NCBI GenBank assembly: GCA_031296915.1
Contig: JAVDPC010000013.1
Location: forward strand, 106,726-170,725
Length of the DNA: 64,000 nucleotides
Origin: Cerasicoccus frondis
GTDB taxonomy: Bacteria > Verrucomicrobiota > Verrucomicrobiia > Opitutales > Cerasicoccaceae
Reading direction: 5' to 3'
Shown here: piece after piece, positions 13,492 to 52,553 of the stretch
Position numbering within the stretch: the stretch's first letter is position 1
How the letters are laid out: the number at the start of each line of letters is the position of its first letter
Translations under genes and position numbers: made by a program
Notes under the pieces: generated by a model
Database searches by the model: none
What the model was told of the DNA's origin: nothing
What the model saw: only the letters and a program-made list of their open reading frames with translations

Positions 13492-13588
13492 TGTAAGTGC
13501 TTTGGTTCTTGGTTCTTAGTGCTTCGTTAATTTGGGAAATGTTCAGTCGTTGGCTTTCATCATTCTGAATTCGTAATTCATAATTTCT

Positions 13589-14934: not shown

Positions 14935-15033
14935 AATGACGAATTAAGAAGTCCGAATGAGGAACGGGGACCGCAGGTTTGAAGCTGTTCTAAACTCGTT
15001 GCATTCATCATTCGCGCTTCGTCATTCGTCATT
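14935..15033. repeat. palindromic spacer element, nifN-nifB junction
   Basis: Perfect 10-bp terminal arms AATGACGAAT (14935-14944) and ATTCGTCATT (15024-15033). The left half continues TAAGAAGTCCGAATGA, identical to the element at 20446, and the right half shares the TTCGTCATTC run with it. No T-tract, so not a typical terminator. Related to the elements at 17895-18393 and 20446-20508. Confidence 0.75.
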
Positions 15034-17894: not shown

Positions 17895-18393
17895 AATGAG
17901 GAATTAGGAAATCAGAATGAGGGAAATAGGTTGATCTGGATCGGGAATAACAATTGATTGTGCGAGTGAGTGATAAACCTAGATTTGACCTTGAGGAGCG
18001 GACAGCCAAGTTTGGTGAGGCAGTGATAGGTTTCACGAGAAGTCTGACAGTAGACCCGATTACGAAGCCGTTGATTGGCCAGGTAGTTCGCTCTGGATGC
18101 AGTGTCGGAGCCAATTACTGCGAAGCGGACGATGCCCACACCAAGAAAGAGTTCCGTCAGAAAATCTCGTATTGCCGAAAGGAGGCCCGAGAGACCAAGC
18201 ACTGGCTTCGAATGATCGCAAAAGCCTGCCCGGAAAAGCGGGATGATTCCTTGGTTCTGTGGAAAGAGGCTCATGAGTTGAATCTTATCTTTTCGGCGAT
18301 TATTCGTAACAGTGAGGAGTGAAGAATGAGGGATTGTAGAATTCTCGTGTAACCGTCTCCTCATTCCTCATTCTCGTTTCGGCATTCCTCATT
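17895..18393. mobile_element. palindrome-bounded cassette carrying a four-helix-bundle gene
   Basis: Perfect 10-bp arms AATGAGGAAT (17895-17904) and ATTCCTCATT (18384-18393), with a second nested pair AGAATGAGG (17913-17921) and CCTCATTCT (18366-18374). These ends match those of the short elements at 14935-15033 and 20446-20508, which have only a loop between them. The cargo is one gene on the plus strand, opposite to all surrounding nif genes. The right arm overlaps the last codons of the ferritin gene. Mobility is inference from this layout; no target-site duplication was identified. Confidence 0.5.
17954..18322 (+). CDS. four-helix-bundle protein (23S rRNA IVS-encoded/S23 family)
   Basis: 122 aa. 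Recognised by the family pattern: RFDLEERTAKFGEAVIGF at the start, then the QVVRSGCSVGANYCEADDA stretch (residues about 43-61), SYCRKEARETKHWL (near 73-86) and a last helix EAHELNLIFSAII. Proteins of this family occur inside 23S rRNA intervening sequences and, much more often, as stand-alone genes of unknown function; relatives (Avd) are accessory to diversity-generating retroelements. No reverse transcriptase or variable repeat is seen nearby. The gene lies alone, antisense to the nif genes, inside palindromic arms. Confidence 0.9.
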   Translation: MIVRVSDKPRFDLEERTAKFGEAVIGFTRSLTVDPITKPLIGQVVRSGCSVGANYCEADDAHTKKEFRQKISYCRKEARETKHWLRMIAKACPEKRDDSLVLWKEAHELNLIFSAIIRNSEE

Positions 18394-20445: not shown

Positions 20446-20508
20446 AATGAGGAATTAAGAAGTCCGAATGATGATGAATTCTTCATTCTGTTTTCGTCAT
20501 TCCTCATT
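20446..20508. repeat. palindromic spacer element, nifD-nifK junction
   Basis: Arms AATGAGGAAT (20446-20455) and ATTCCTCATT (20499-20508), identical to those of the cassette at 17895-18393. The left half reads on as TAAGAAGTCCGAATGA, as at 14935. It would fold as a hairpin in the nifD-nifK transcript. Confidence 0.75.
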
Positions 20509-22193: not shown

Positions 22194-22269
22194 GAATTAT
22201 GAGTTATGAAGTATGAATTATGAAAAAAAGACCTGATGTAGTATTTTCATAATTCTGCATTCATAATTC
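22194..22269. repeat. nested palindrome in the nifH-nifD gap
   Basis: Outer arms GAATTATGA (22194-22202) and TCATAATTC (22261-22269); inner perfect 12-bp arms GAATTATGAAAA (22215-22226) and TTTTCATAATTC (22244-22255). Built from repeated GAATTATGA words, like but not identical to the other nif spacers. A stem-loop after nifH often raises nifH mRNA over nifDK; that role is inferred. Confidence 0.7.
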
Positions 22270-22273
22270 TGAA

Positions 22274-23266
<993 letters not shown>

Positions 23267-36929: not shown

Positions 36930-37495
36930 TTCGCCCCGGATAAGACGATTACCCACATCGGAACGAGTTGGAGTCGCGCCTACAGGCCTGCGCCTCCCAC
37001 GTACGGCTGATCTAGAAACGACTACAGCACTTTTCATCTAGATTGGCCGATCAGGCCGCAGTGATTTTTCGTGTTCAGCAAGGCGGCTTAAGCGTCGCAG
37101 GCTGGAAGCCTGTGAGCGAAAAGCCAACAACGCTGGCGCGGAAAAGCACTCGGTTTAGGGCTTGGGGACAGATTGGAAGTTCGCGGCGTTGGCATTTCAA
37201 TCACGGGCTTCCAGCCCGCTCAATCAAAGCCGCCTTGCGCTGCATCCAATCTCTACCCCACCTGAATCGGCCAATCTAGATGAAAAGTGCTCTAGGCAGC
37301 TCGATGAGCAGCTTTATGTTGGCCTTTGCCGACGCTTACAATCGTAGCGCCATCTTGTAATGGCGACGAGACAACTTGGCGGATAATATTAGCCAATACG
37401 ACTCCATACACAGCAAAAATGAGGTCGCGTCCTGTAACGACACTTCGAATAGGGCTCGCCACTGGCCATCATTCCATCTCTAATCCGGATCATTC
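36930..37495. other. gene-free stretch holding two repeat families
   Basis: 566 bp with no credible gene. It contains a diverged piece of repeat B (about 36967-36990), the complete 266-bp repeat A element (37026-37291) and then roughly 200 bp of unremarkable sequence before the AI-2E family gene. Confidence 0.7.
37026..37291. mobile_element. 266-bp repeat A element with 25-bp perfect terminal inverted repeats
   Basis: The first 25 bases (AGCACTTTTCATCTAGATTG and five more, 37026-37050) recur exactly as the reverse complement at 37267-37291. The two halves are themselves imperfect inverted copies: AAGGCGGCTT ... GGCTGGAAGCC on the left is mirrored by GGCTTCCAGCC ... AAGCCGCCTT on the right. 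No ORF inside. Half of it recurs at 63876-64000 and in diverged form at 1165-1245. MITE-like or REPIN-like; no flanking duplication was established. Confidence 0.75.
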
Positions 37496-42102: not shown

Positions 42103-42732
42103 CTACAAATCGTCAATCGCGCCAATTTGAGCCAAGTGGGAAATGTCGCCCCAGGTGTGCAGCAGCCAGCGCCCGCCCTCGTAGGAAAACTCGTTGAAGG
42201 CGGCGTTGACGAATTTGTAGCAGCGCGTGTGCTCGCATGGAATGCCGATTGCGTGACGCAGGAACATGCCGAGGATTCCGCCATGAGTGACGATGCAGAC
42301 CGTCTCACCGCCGCAACGTTCGGCAATGGCGTCAAAGGCGTTGCCGGCGCGGTGAAAGACGTCACGCAGGCTTTCACCTTGCGGGATAATGTAGTCCACT
42401 CCACCGTGGAGGTAGCCATCCTCTTCGCGGGGAAATTTCTCCGCCGCCTCAGCTCGCGTGTAGCCCGCCAGGATGCCGAAGTCGCGCTCGCGCAGGCCCT
42501 TATCCTGCTCCCACGGCGTTCCCTCATGATGGCTGGCAATCGCACGGCAAGTATCGACAGCGCGCCCCAGGTCACTGGACACAATGCGGTCGAACTGGAC
42601 GCCCTTCAGCCGCTCACCGATAGCCTGCGCCTGACGGCGCCCCTTCTCGGTCAACGGCGAATCAAGCTGCCCCTGATAGCGATGCTGAATGTTCCACTCA
42701 GTCTCGCCGTGGCGGATGACGATTAGGCGCAT
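42103..42732 (-). CDS. histidine phosphatase (phosphoglycerate mutase-like)
   Basis: 209 aa. Catalytic RHG motif in LIVIRHGETEWN (His phosphate acceptor at about H8), the ERDFGILAGYT acid region near 102-112, and the second His in VCIVTHGGILGMF (near 156). It belongs to the CobC/GpmB/SixA group; true dPGM is less likely because the protein is short. Probably a cytoplasmic phosphatase of small metabolites. Downstream of lpd across a short palindromic spacer on the same strand. Confidence 0.9.
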   Translation of the reverse strand: MRLIVIRHGETEWNIQHRYQGQLDSPLTEKGRRQAQAIGERLKGVQFDRIVSSDLGRAVDTCRAIASHHEGTPWEQDKGLRERDFGILAGYTRAEAAEKFPREEDGYLHGGVDYIIPQGESLRDVFHRAGNAFDAIAERCGGETVCIVTHGGILGMFLRHAIGIPCEHTRCYKFVNAAFNEFSYEGGRWLLHTWGDISHLAQIGAIDDL

Positions 42733-42750
42733 GGTCTTTGGAGATAAATG

Positions 42751-42798
42751 TGAGCAAATTAAAGTGAGCAGCTGGCTCTTTAATTTTTAATTTGCTCA
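42751..42798. repeat. palindromic spacer between lpd and phosphatase genes
   Basis: TGAGCAAATTA (42751-42761) and TAATTTGCTCA (42788-42798) are perfect 11-bp arms; GTGAGCAG and CTGCTCAC recur next to them. Same build as the nif spacers but with a different word. Confidence 0.65.
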
Positions 42799-42807
42799 CT
42801 GCTCACT

Positions 42808-44205
42808 CTAAATATGAATCGCCTCGTTGTGGGTGGCGGCGGCGGCCTCCATGAGCGCTTCCGAGAGTGTCGGGTGCGCGTGGATCGTGCCGTGAATTTC
42901 CTCCCAAGTCGCTTCGAGTTCCATGCCCAATGCGTATTCGGCAATGAGCTCGGTCGCTTCGGCGCCAGTGATGTGCGCGCCGAGCAGCTCGCCTTCGGGC
43001 TCGGAAACGATCAGCTTGACGAAGCCGTCGGACTCCATTGCGGCAACCGCCTTGCCCGATGCGGTGAACGGGAATTTGCCGACCTTGTATTTCAATTCCT
43101 GCGCCTTCACGTCGCGCTCGGTCAGGCCGATGCTCGCCACCTGCGGCTGGCAGTAAGTGCAGCCCGGGAAGCGCGTGTAAGGACGCGGCTCGCCGTGGCC
43201 AAACATGCCATTGACGGCTTGCACCGCTTCGTAGGTTGCGACGTGGGCGAGCCAAGGCGGTCCGATGATGTCGCCTGCGGCGTAGATGCCCTTCACGCTG
43301 GTGCGGTAATGCTCGTCGACCTTGATGTAGTTCTTGAACATTTCCAGCTTCACGCGGTTGGAAAGGAGCTTGTCGGTGTTGGCTTGAACGCCGATGGCGA
43401 CGAGCAGCGACTCGGCTTCGAGCTTGTCGGTCTTGTCGCCCTTGACAGCGTTGAGCGAGACCTTGCCCTTCTTGACTTCGATGTCTTCGGCCTTCGTGCC
43501 GGTCAGGATTTTGAGGCCCTGCTTGCTCAGGGACTTCTCCACAAACTTTGAGACATCGTCGTCTTCGACCGGCAGCACGCGGTCCATCATTTCAACGACA
43601 GTCACCTCGCAACCAAAGGCGTTGAGGAAATAGGCGAACTCCATGCCGATGGCGCCAGCGCCGAGGACGATGCAGCTCTTCGGCAGATCGCGGCGGTCGA
43701 GAATTTCACGGGCGGTCATCACTTGCTTGCCGTCCTTTTCGAGGCCGGGCAACATGCGGGCGCGGCACCCCGTGGCGATGAGGATGTTTTTCGCGGACAG
43801 GAACTCGCCCTTGCGGTCGCCGGAGATCAGCTCGACCATGCCGGGCACATTGATCTGCGCCTGGCCGACGATGTAGTCCACCTTGTTCTTCTTAAAGAGG
43901 AACTCGATGCCCTTGGCCATCTTGTCGGCGACGCCGCGGGAGCGCTCTACGACCTTGGGGAAGTCGACATCGATCTTGCCGACCTTGAAGCCGAAGTCGT
44001 CCGCATGCAGCATTTTCTGGTAGAGCTCAGCGCTCTTGAGCAATGCCTTGGAAGGAATGCAGCCCCAGTTAAGGCAGGTGCCGCCGGCGCGCTCCATTTC
44101 AACACAGGCAACTTTCTTGCCGAGTTGTCCGGCGCGAATAGCGCCTGCATAACCGGCTGGTCCGCCGCCAATTACCACTAAATCGTAGCTGCTTGTATCT
44201 GCCAT
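42808..44205 (-). CDS. lpdA: dihydrolipoyl dehydrogenase
   Basis: 465 aa. E3 component of 2-oxoacid dehydrogenases or of the glycine cleavage system. FAD motif VIGGGPAGYAGAIRA at the N-terminus, redox-active disulfide C44/C49 in GGTCLNWGCIPSK, NAD-binding GAGAIGMEFAYFL near 180, and the C-terminal catalytic HAHPTLSEAL (His/Glu of the partner subunit). No E1/E2 gene is beside it, so the partner complex is elsewhere. Divergent from the DUF481-like gene. Confidence 0.96.
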   Translation of the reverse strand: MADTSSYDLVVIGGGPAGYAGAIRAGQLGKKVACVEMERAGGTCLNWGCIPSKALLKSAELYQKMLHADDFGFKVGKIDVDFPKVVERSRGVADKMAKGIEFLFKKNKVDYIVGQAQINVPGMVELISGDRKGEFLSAKNILIATGCRARMLPGLEKDGKQVMTAREILDRRDLPKSCIVLGAGAIGMEFAYFLNAFGCEVTVVEMMDRVLPVEDDDVSKFVEKSLSKQGLKILTGTKAEDIEVKKGKVSLNAVKGDKTDKLEAESLLVAIGVQANTDKLLSNRVKLEMFKNYIKVDEHYRTSVKGIYAAGDIIGPPWLAHVATYEAVQAVNGMFGHGEPRPYTRFPGCTYCQPQVASIGLTERDVKAQELKYKVGKFPFTASGKAVAAMESDGFVKLIVSEPEGELLGAHITGAEATELIAEYALGMELEATWEEIHGTIHAHPTLSEALMEAAAATHNEAIHI

Positions 44206-49516: not shown

Positions 49517-49591
49517 GGTTGGAGTCCCGCCTTCAGGCGGCCATGTCAGTAATGTGAGGCAGCCTGGCCGCCTGAAGGCGGAACTCCAACC
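49517..49591. repeat. repeat B palindrome
   Basis: GGTTGGAGTCCCGCCTTCAG then GCGGCC (49517-49542) is mirrored by GGCCGCCTGAAGGCGGAACT then CCAACC (49566-49591) with one mismatch, around a 23-bp centre. Same family as 38720-38751 and 51779-51853. Confidence 0.8.
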
Positions 49592-51683: not shown

Positions 51684-51778
51684 CCTGCGACGCTACACCG
51701 CGGCGCCCCGATTGCAACCCACAGGATCAGGAAAGCTGCTTCATTGATAAAGCAACTCAGCTCCGCCCGTTGTGCTGG

Positions 51779-51853
51779 GTTGGAGTCCTCCCTTCAGGCG
51801 GCCAGGCCAGCAAGGAGAGGCAGCATGGCCGCCTGAAGGCGGGACTCCAACCG
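51779..51853. repeat. repeat B palindrome
   Basis: Left arm 51779-51804 starts GGTTGGAGTCC; right arm 51828-51853 ends GACTCCAACC. Near-identical to the copy at 49517-49591, with a different centre. Confidence 0.8.
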
Positions 51854-51939: not shown

Positions 51940-52014
51940 TTTACTATTAGTCAGAGCCACTCACTAATACTGAGAGCCAGTGAAAGCTGCTCAGTGGCTT
52001 TGACTAATAGTAAA
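51940..52014. repeat. 22-bp-arm inverted repeat
   Basis: Bases 51940-51961 (TTTACTATTAGTCAGAGCC and three more) match the reverse complement of 51993-52014 at 21 of 22 positions. AGTGG/GCCACT words recur in the 31-bp centre. Confidence 0.7.
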
Positions 52015-52117: not shown

Positions 52118-52553
52118 GCCTGCATGAATCCGAAAAGCACCACCCCCCCACACTCCCAACGCAGTTTAGTAACGACAAATCGCGCGAATGGCCGCGAATC
52201 CAACCAACGTCGCTTTGTACGACAGCCATCACGGTTCTCCGCCAATGGAATTCCGCCTGGGCGCCACCCCCTCCCCCCGCCTGTCGAAGTATCCGCGGCC
52301 ATCCGCAGTATCCGTAGTTTCAAAACCTCGCGCCCCAACCTGCCTCATCAACCTGATTCGCGTTCATTCGCGCAATTCGTAGTTGAAAACAGTCCTGCCC
52401 CCCTCCCCCCTCTGCCTCACGAATCCCATCCTGGTACATGCGAAAAATTCACGCCCCCTCCCCCAATTCGAGACTCGAAACTCATCACTGAACCCATTTT
52501 TTTCTTTCCGCCGCCCCCCATAGCGGTAAGCCTTGGTGGCTTTTCTGAAAATC

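Follow-up and report, generated by a model that had tools for sequence, protein, structure and literature searches.

Most of what is known of S23/IVS-type proteins comes from rRNA intervening sequences. The intervening sequence (IVS) of 23S rRNA carries one ORF of this family between inverted ends, and its size is similar to that of the elements described below (PMC4990558, in the accessible part of the text). A comparable layout is seen with REPINs and RAYTs, where dispersed intergenic inverted doublets occur in many copies and are linked to a gene family with which joint evolution has been proposed (PMC3116915, likewise from the part accessible). Heptamer arrays have been described piecemeal. 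In Geobacter metallireducens four tandem octamers or five tandem heptamers are paired on opposite strands; they are taken as regulator sites, and the terms S23 and four-helix are absent from the available portion of the text (PMC2700814). The intergenic 7-nt TAACTGA arrays of Beggiatoaceae, of the STRR type, are described as direct repeats, and the available portion of that paper lacks the terms S23, four helix and palindrom (PMC4679880). Avd of diversity-generating retroelements (DGRs) is a homologous four-helix bundle (PMC10053308, accessible part). A literature search whose reach left out most subscription papers found no paper linking S23 or GxxExxY genes to such arrays, nor one reporting the word count.

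The window analysed here, a stretch of 64,000 nucleotides, is part of contig C13 of a 5.8 Mb genome (G000) and contains a 499-bp cassette (positions 17895-18393) in which an S23/IVP four-helix-bundle gene lies between inverted arms. Its defining features set it apart both from RAYT systems and from the rRNA IVS, its layout being like that of the former and its gene like that of the latter. Extragenic inverted doublets are present in many copies, but the arms are counted arrays of words, full copies hold the gene between them, and a Pfam search with the window protein gives PF05635 alone, with no Y1 transposase domain. The analogy to RAYT transposases and REPs drawn in a preliminary description of this DNA is borne out in the layout and fails for the gene. 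As in the IVS, an S23 ORF stands between inverted ends; unlike the IVS, the cassettes lie between protein genes, the window copy between a ferritin-like gene and nifE rather than inside a 23S rRNA gene, and there are many gene-free copies. When the surroundings of the loci (under 5 kb) were searched for 23S motifs, no rRNA turned up, two short chance-like matches aside.

The explanation that we prefer, with confidence slightly above even, is that of a dispersed cassette whose S23 homopentamer reads one word per subunit and whose short copies are deletion derivatives. The window would then hold one full and several gene-free copies. A full S23 cassette measures about 0.49 kb, each arm consisting of about five copies of an element-specific word, and a homopentamer would bind an arm with one subunit on each word. 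Arms and protein together would form a selfish unit that settles at gene junctions, also within operons such as nif, and that may be aided in its spread by the S23 protein; gene-free copies would keep both arms and depend on protein made elsewhere. Such a reading would account for the unusual junctions seen in nif and after sufC and pheS, and would give an identity to very small elements that are annotated across many phyla as hypothetical proteins and spacer DNA.

The full cassette and gene-free copies in the nif cluster

The nif genes, whose names we assign from sequence and general knowledge, occupy the minus strand and follow one another as H, D, K, ferritin-like (ftn), E, N, B, ferredoxin. 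The S23/IVP gene (17954-18322) is on the opposite, plus strand; it is listed with a TTG start and encodes 122 amino acids that match TIGR02436 (1.1e-17) and PF05635 (5.7e-11), both above the family cut-offs, with PDB entry 2rld as a relative. No transposase or nuclease family was matched. The left arm (17895-17924, plus strand) has five anchors, the innermost inexact, and its GAA-N4 words point inward; the right arm (18364-18393, minus strand) also has five. As an inverted pair (17895-17922 with 18366-18393) the arms are 82% complementary. This anatomy, one gene of the S23/IVS family set against the nif strand between inverted arms, is as first described.

Two neighbouring junctions had been said to carry ends of the same kind and a common left-half word, and both statements hold. 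At nifN/nifB a gene-free copy occupies 14935-15033, with arms at 14935-14964 and 15004-15033 that are 83% complementary; at nifD/nifK another occupies 20446-20508, with arms at 20446-20475 and 20479-20508, of which 20446-20474 and 20480-20508 pair at 79%. The word TAAGAAGTCCGAATGA occurs exactly twice in the genome, at these two junctions. Two further copies had gone unmentioned: one at nifH/nifD (22195-22275; arms 22195-22224 and 22246-22275) with the word GAATTAT, and one at 42725-42824. The latter has the word AGTGAGCAAATTAAA, which belongs to a further S23 cassette (L005), and the RNA fold of this gene-free copy has a z of -5.2. A single half-array on the minus strand at the nifB/ferredoxin junction (13556-13579) is recognized by a 4 x GAA match (G000:C13:120281-120304) and by the junction sequence.

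The window contains 12 inverted repeats scoring at least 15 (highest 28), some of them unrelated elements, against 3, 2, 1, 0 and 3 (highest 17) in five Markov-shuffled windows. The nif pairs score 20, 18, 17 and 18, so that one merely equals the best shuffle; they stand above chance because of the common word and because of the 7-nt periodicity of their left arms, in which self-match is 0.59-0.76 at lag 7 and 0.22-0.45 at lags 6 and 8.

For the GAA type alone, copies with and without a gene were counted. By reading, the 49 hits of a 4 x GAA search in G000 resolve into about 13 gene-free pairs, of which ten were read individually and three belong to nif; there are also three S23 cassettes (L004, L009, L010), around seven arrays standing singly and a wide pair. 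The ten individually read copies have ORFs, called mechanically, on both sides within about 25 nt or overlapping them. The raw number of arrays proves nothing alone: G000 has 24 + 25 against 25 + 17 for a reversed-pattern control that is itself contaminated by words starting GAAG, and several relatives fall below the control. In G005 there are 31 and 20 array matches but two S23 genes, one of which (L026) has no arms. All 14 loci inspected from G001, G005, G007, G008 and G009, at ten distinct places, showed a single arm at the threshold used. The array numbers, G005 and these single arms sit awkwardly with the dispersed-cassette reading. A pair of arms of 1.87 kb (L299) is recorded here without interpretation.

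Arm anatomy and word number across S23 genes

The arm rule was derived from S23 genes chosen without regard to their flanks. Seven of the nine S23 matches in the window's own genome have clear inverted word arrays with scores of 18-30, where other-locus pairings reach no more than 16. An eighth (L004) has arrays by eye and by periodicity, although its best score (17) falls on another stretch, and in the ninth (L011) word arrays are absent. The words vary among elements (GGCAGAA, AATTAAA, GTGTTGAA, GAATTAT and others) and are common to both arms of one element. As a separate observation, an S23-like gene (MSNFFPHE...) is present in three genomes (L011, L026, L027) without arms, with scores of 10-11, and falls outside the cassette class.

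The rule was carried to a broad set comprising 80 genes of the window subfamily from many phyla, the best 80 of at least 554 confirmed relatives, and 29 new loci of another subfamily, from 100 genomes with a match; 107 of these 109 were used, L126 and L166 having short flanks. A first control in which flanks were swapped between loci was discarded as inflated, since unrelated loci have words in common, and flanks 800 nt further out were used instead. Arm scores exceed the 95th percentile of this control at 56 of 78 loci of the window subfamily and 20 of 29 of the other, and do not at the remaining 22 and 9. Among the 156 flanks of the window subfamily (78 genes), 138 have 7 as their best period, against 9 of 140 control flanks. 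Arm words go with four-helix-bundle genes rather than occurring at random. In the other subfamily 37 of 58 flanks have a best period of 7 and 14 of 8 (controls, 3 and 2 of 58). A score above 16 occurs once among 150 control ORFs, at a locus that turned out to be an S23 cassette. The median cassette length is 486 bp (104 loci). Both arms reached a periodicity of 0.6 at 111 of 137 loci, and among these the purine-rich strand runs inward in 88, outward in 6 and is undecided in 17.

In DGRs the partner is a reverse transcriptase (RT). RT genes occur in five of the ten genomes, and the ten examined lack arms (scores 10-13). In one genome (G001), where an S23 cassette (L014) is present, no RT match was obtained. 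A role of RT as helper of the cassettes looks less likely, given that these RT genes lack arms.

The word of the window subfamily is 7 nt long, GAA and four free bases, and the arm can be written AA(N4 GAA)x4, 30 nt with five anchors. In 115 arms, runs of anchors at exact 7-nt steps number four in 7, five in 59, six in 26, seven in 10 and more in 13; a chance match at either end (10 of 64 trinucleotides) would, by our estimate, shift about that share of fives to sixes. A run of three exact GAA anchors is lacking in 44 of 159 arms and in all 150 control regions. Counted from the innermost exact anchor towards the outside, in the 102 arms left when runs longer than seven are excluded, GAA frequency is 1.00, 0.92, 0.80, 0.83, 0.28 and 0.05, and xAA frequency is 0.84 at the fifth anchor and 0.21 beyond, a sharp edge. 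The 20 arms of the ten gene-free copies have five anchors in 12 cases, six in 6 and seven in 2. For the other subfamily, the arms counted were those in which four or more exact anchors follow at 7-nt steps (33 of 58 in the phylum set, 12 of 34 in the family set): the phylum set has four anchors in 12, five in 13, six in 3 and more in 5, and the family set four in 3 and five in 9. With steps of 8 nt, counts in the phylum set are scattered (five in 2 of 10) and the family set has five in 4 of 6. The 8-nt arrays are often longer, and four and five words nearly tie. From these counts, five is sharp in the window subfamily and less so in the other. The anchor count of five agrees with the five chains in each of the solved S23 relatives, 2rld and 2gsc, and a title cited in the accessible part of PMC10053308 mentions five four-helix bundles assembled together. 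With five words set beside five-chain crystals, the link between S23 proteins and heptamer arrays makes the role of these proteins amenable to a test at the bench.

It is very improbable that the repeats are simply born of slippage, that is, that replication slippage and template switching create and erode the heptamer arrays while S23 genes tolerate them or hitch-hike. Words are homogeneous within an element, and some arms exceed 20 words, as would suit slippage, but the edge at five is sharp, the number is three for GxxExxY cassettes (see below), the polarity is inward, and the arms are tied to two gene families while the ten RT genes and 150 control ORFs lack them. One such case (L120), on a contig titled Thermoflexus hugenholtzii, has both S23 arms expanded to more than 20 near-identical GAAGGAT words.

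The complementarity of the arms could instead be what is selected. In that event the cassettes would resemble the rRNA IVS as RNA elements, the transcribed arms folding into a stem that RNase III cuts, with the insert removed or the operon mRNA processed; we regard this as unlikely. The four short gene-free copies tested fold well as RNA, with z from -4.1 to -5.2, and a Coxiella IVS of 428 nt with an S23 ORF has a 28-bp terminal stem and is cut by RNase III in vitro (PMC4990558, accessible part). Arms of orthologous cassettes also change together: at one site in five species arms match at 0.85-1.0 within an element and at 0.48-0.72 between species in nine of ten pairs, the exception being L005/L015 (0.97-1.0), and among the four elements behind sufC three have taken on a different word, with similarity close to that of shuffled words (0.39-0.56 against 0.44), while their own arms still match at 0.71-0.88. 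A stem, however, needs no fixed word count, and the spacers speak against pairing as the main constraint. In 61 of 63 elements, duplicates having been removed, spacer identity is 0.687 within the same arm, 0.688 with another position of the opposite arm, 0.704 with the same position of the opposite arm and 0.569 with another element; the same-position excess is confined to the outermost (0.76) and innermost (0.77) words, the middle words having none. Position thus adds little to the match with the opposite arm, and the palindrome arises mainly as a side effect of using a single word ten times over. One word repeated in both arms is what would be expected if identical subunits read the arms.

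Protein identity and word similarity are correlated (rho 0.64, n = 107, against at most 0.19 in 500 permutations), a relation that common descent could also give. The 107 were drawn from 133 proteins; L148 and L149 were dropped for a stop in the matched stretch, L017, L030 and L036 are absent, and the motif-based sorting into subfamilies, being imperfect, was not used.

Occupied and empty sites

Orthologous junctions are filled in some relatives and empty in others. At ftn/nifE the S23 cassette is present in G000 and G004, with proteins 78% identical. G003, with 96.6-100% identity to G000 in its other nif proteins (90.8% in nifE), has 32 bp at the site and no cassette; the cassette is also absent there in G006, G007 and G009, and it is not fixed among relatives. 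The gene-free copy at nifN/nifB is absent in G003 and has the distribution of the ftn/nifE cassette, and that at nifD/nifK is found in G000, G003 and G004. Broad recombination as the source of the difference between G000 and G003 was rejected: identity is at least 0.90 beside the ftn/nifE indel and stands at 0.976 and 0.94 in the flanks of nifN/nifB, although it falls to 0.727 across the 200 nt that include this junction. In a synteny comparison of C13 with 240 kb of G003 C2, the nif cluster alone was aligned. At the nif sites the data fit gain and loss of copies equally well. By eye, an open frame in G004 at nifN/nifB (L071) runs from an ATG inside the palindrome through the right arm into nifB, and the right arm may belong to the nifB coding sequence of that genome.

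Behind sufC a cassette is present in G000, G002 and G006, and by alignment in G009, and is lacking in G001, G003 and G004; the downstream gene is common to G002 and G003. Behind pheS, G000 has an S23 cassette and G002 has a GxxExxY gene behind the left arm. In G001 the arms are those of G002 and the gene is truncated, in G003 those arms remain with the first bases of the gene, and G006 has a gene-free pair with other words and G004 a third word. This series shows, for the GxxExxY type, that gene-free copies can arise by internal deletion; the gene-free copies of the S23 type are likely internal-deletion derivatives as well. The relation of a full element to short derivatives, as read in the preliminary description, accordingly stands as regards the common ends and the deletion series, and is likely for the S23 copies themselves. 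That description was right on anatomy and probably right on full and short copies, and its idea of a protein that may serve the palindromes is better founded than before; the filled and empty sites, the deletion series and the protein-word correlation, which common descent could also give, are counted as support for its interpretation, which is borne out in part.

Target duplications of 1-9 nt were at or near chance in the 63 of 94 sources that reached the arm threshold, so that the target-site duplication of a MITE of a DDE transposon is not seen. The S23 genes are under purifying selection, with dN/dS of 0.02-0.09 in four pairs; in three more, synonymous sites are saturated and pN is 0.12-0.15.

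Selection on the protein would also suit a host function in which the arms are putative sites where S23 tunes operon junctions in trans, the copies being hardly mobile now, perhaps somewhat as the attenuation protein TRAP acts on leader RNAs (PMC4027176, accessible part), a likeness by analogy. We consider such regulation quite improbable. Cassettes do stay at one site in five species, transcripts crossing a pair meet the GAA strand first (88 inward against 6 outward, n = 111), and the similar Geobacter pairs are taken as regulator sites in the available text of PMC2700814. Sites in the same operon are nevertheless empty in close relatives, and words at one site turn over, unlike conserved regulatory sites. 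The regulator sites reported in Geobacter were probably an earlier sighting of gene-free forms.

GxxExxY cassettes and palindromes of other kinds

The second cargo, GxxExxY/PDDEXK_3, follows the same plan. All six such genes in the window's own genome are framed by arms, with scores of 23-34, and 31 of 33 loci (27 phylum-wide and the six) exceed the 95th percentile of the control, L246 and L247, of odd length, being left out of the original 35. The arm has three words at 8-11-nt spacing: chain length is three in 43 of 58 arms and in 2 of 54 control stretches, counted at 29 of the 33 loci (the arms of L231, L244, L253 and L257 being too long). As a tentative generalization, and one that we hold to be rather doubtful, small homo-oligomeric proteins may own dispersed cassettes in which words per arm equal subunits, five for S23 and three for GxxExxY; the rRNA IVS with S23, the heptamer arrays and the Geobacter sites would then form one class that moves without a known transposase or target duplication. 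Such a word-counting code predicts a trimeric GxxExxY protein, or binding in groups of three; a PDB search with GxxExxY found no relative.

Gene-free pairs of GxxExxY type, with three words TTTAACCACGAAG..CACGAAG..CACGAAG, were noticed at L056 16159-16325 and L062 10949-11127. In the window a 214-bp pair (52171-52384) has arms (AACGACAAATCGCGCGAATGG...) that resemble those of a GxxExxY cassette (L080) and is possibly a gene-free derivative. A MITE-like element of 271-274 bp differs from the word cassettes in its nearly perfect terminal inverted repeats of 26-30 nt (CTAGAGCACTTTTCATCTAGATTGGCCGA); the stretches that were read contain at least four copies, at 37022-37295 in the window and at L054 16887-17160, L063 3852-4122 and L066 17366-17637. 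Three REP-like palindromes of 75 bp lie at 49517-49591, 51778-51852 and 51940-52014 of the window, two of them with GGTTGGAGTCC...CTTCAGGCGGCCA.
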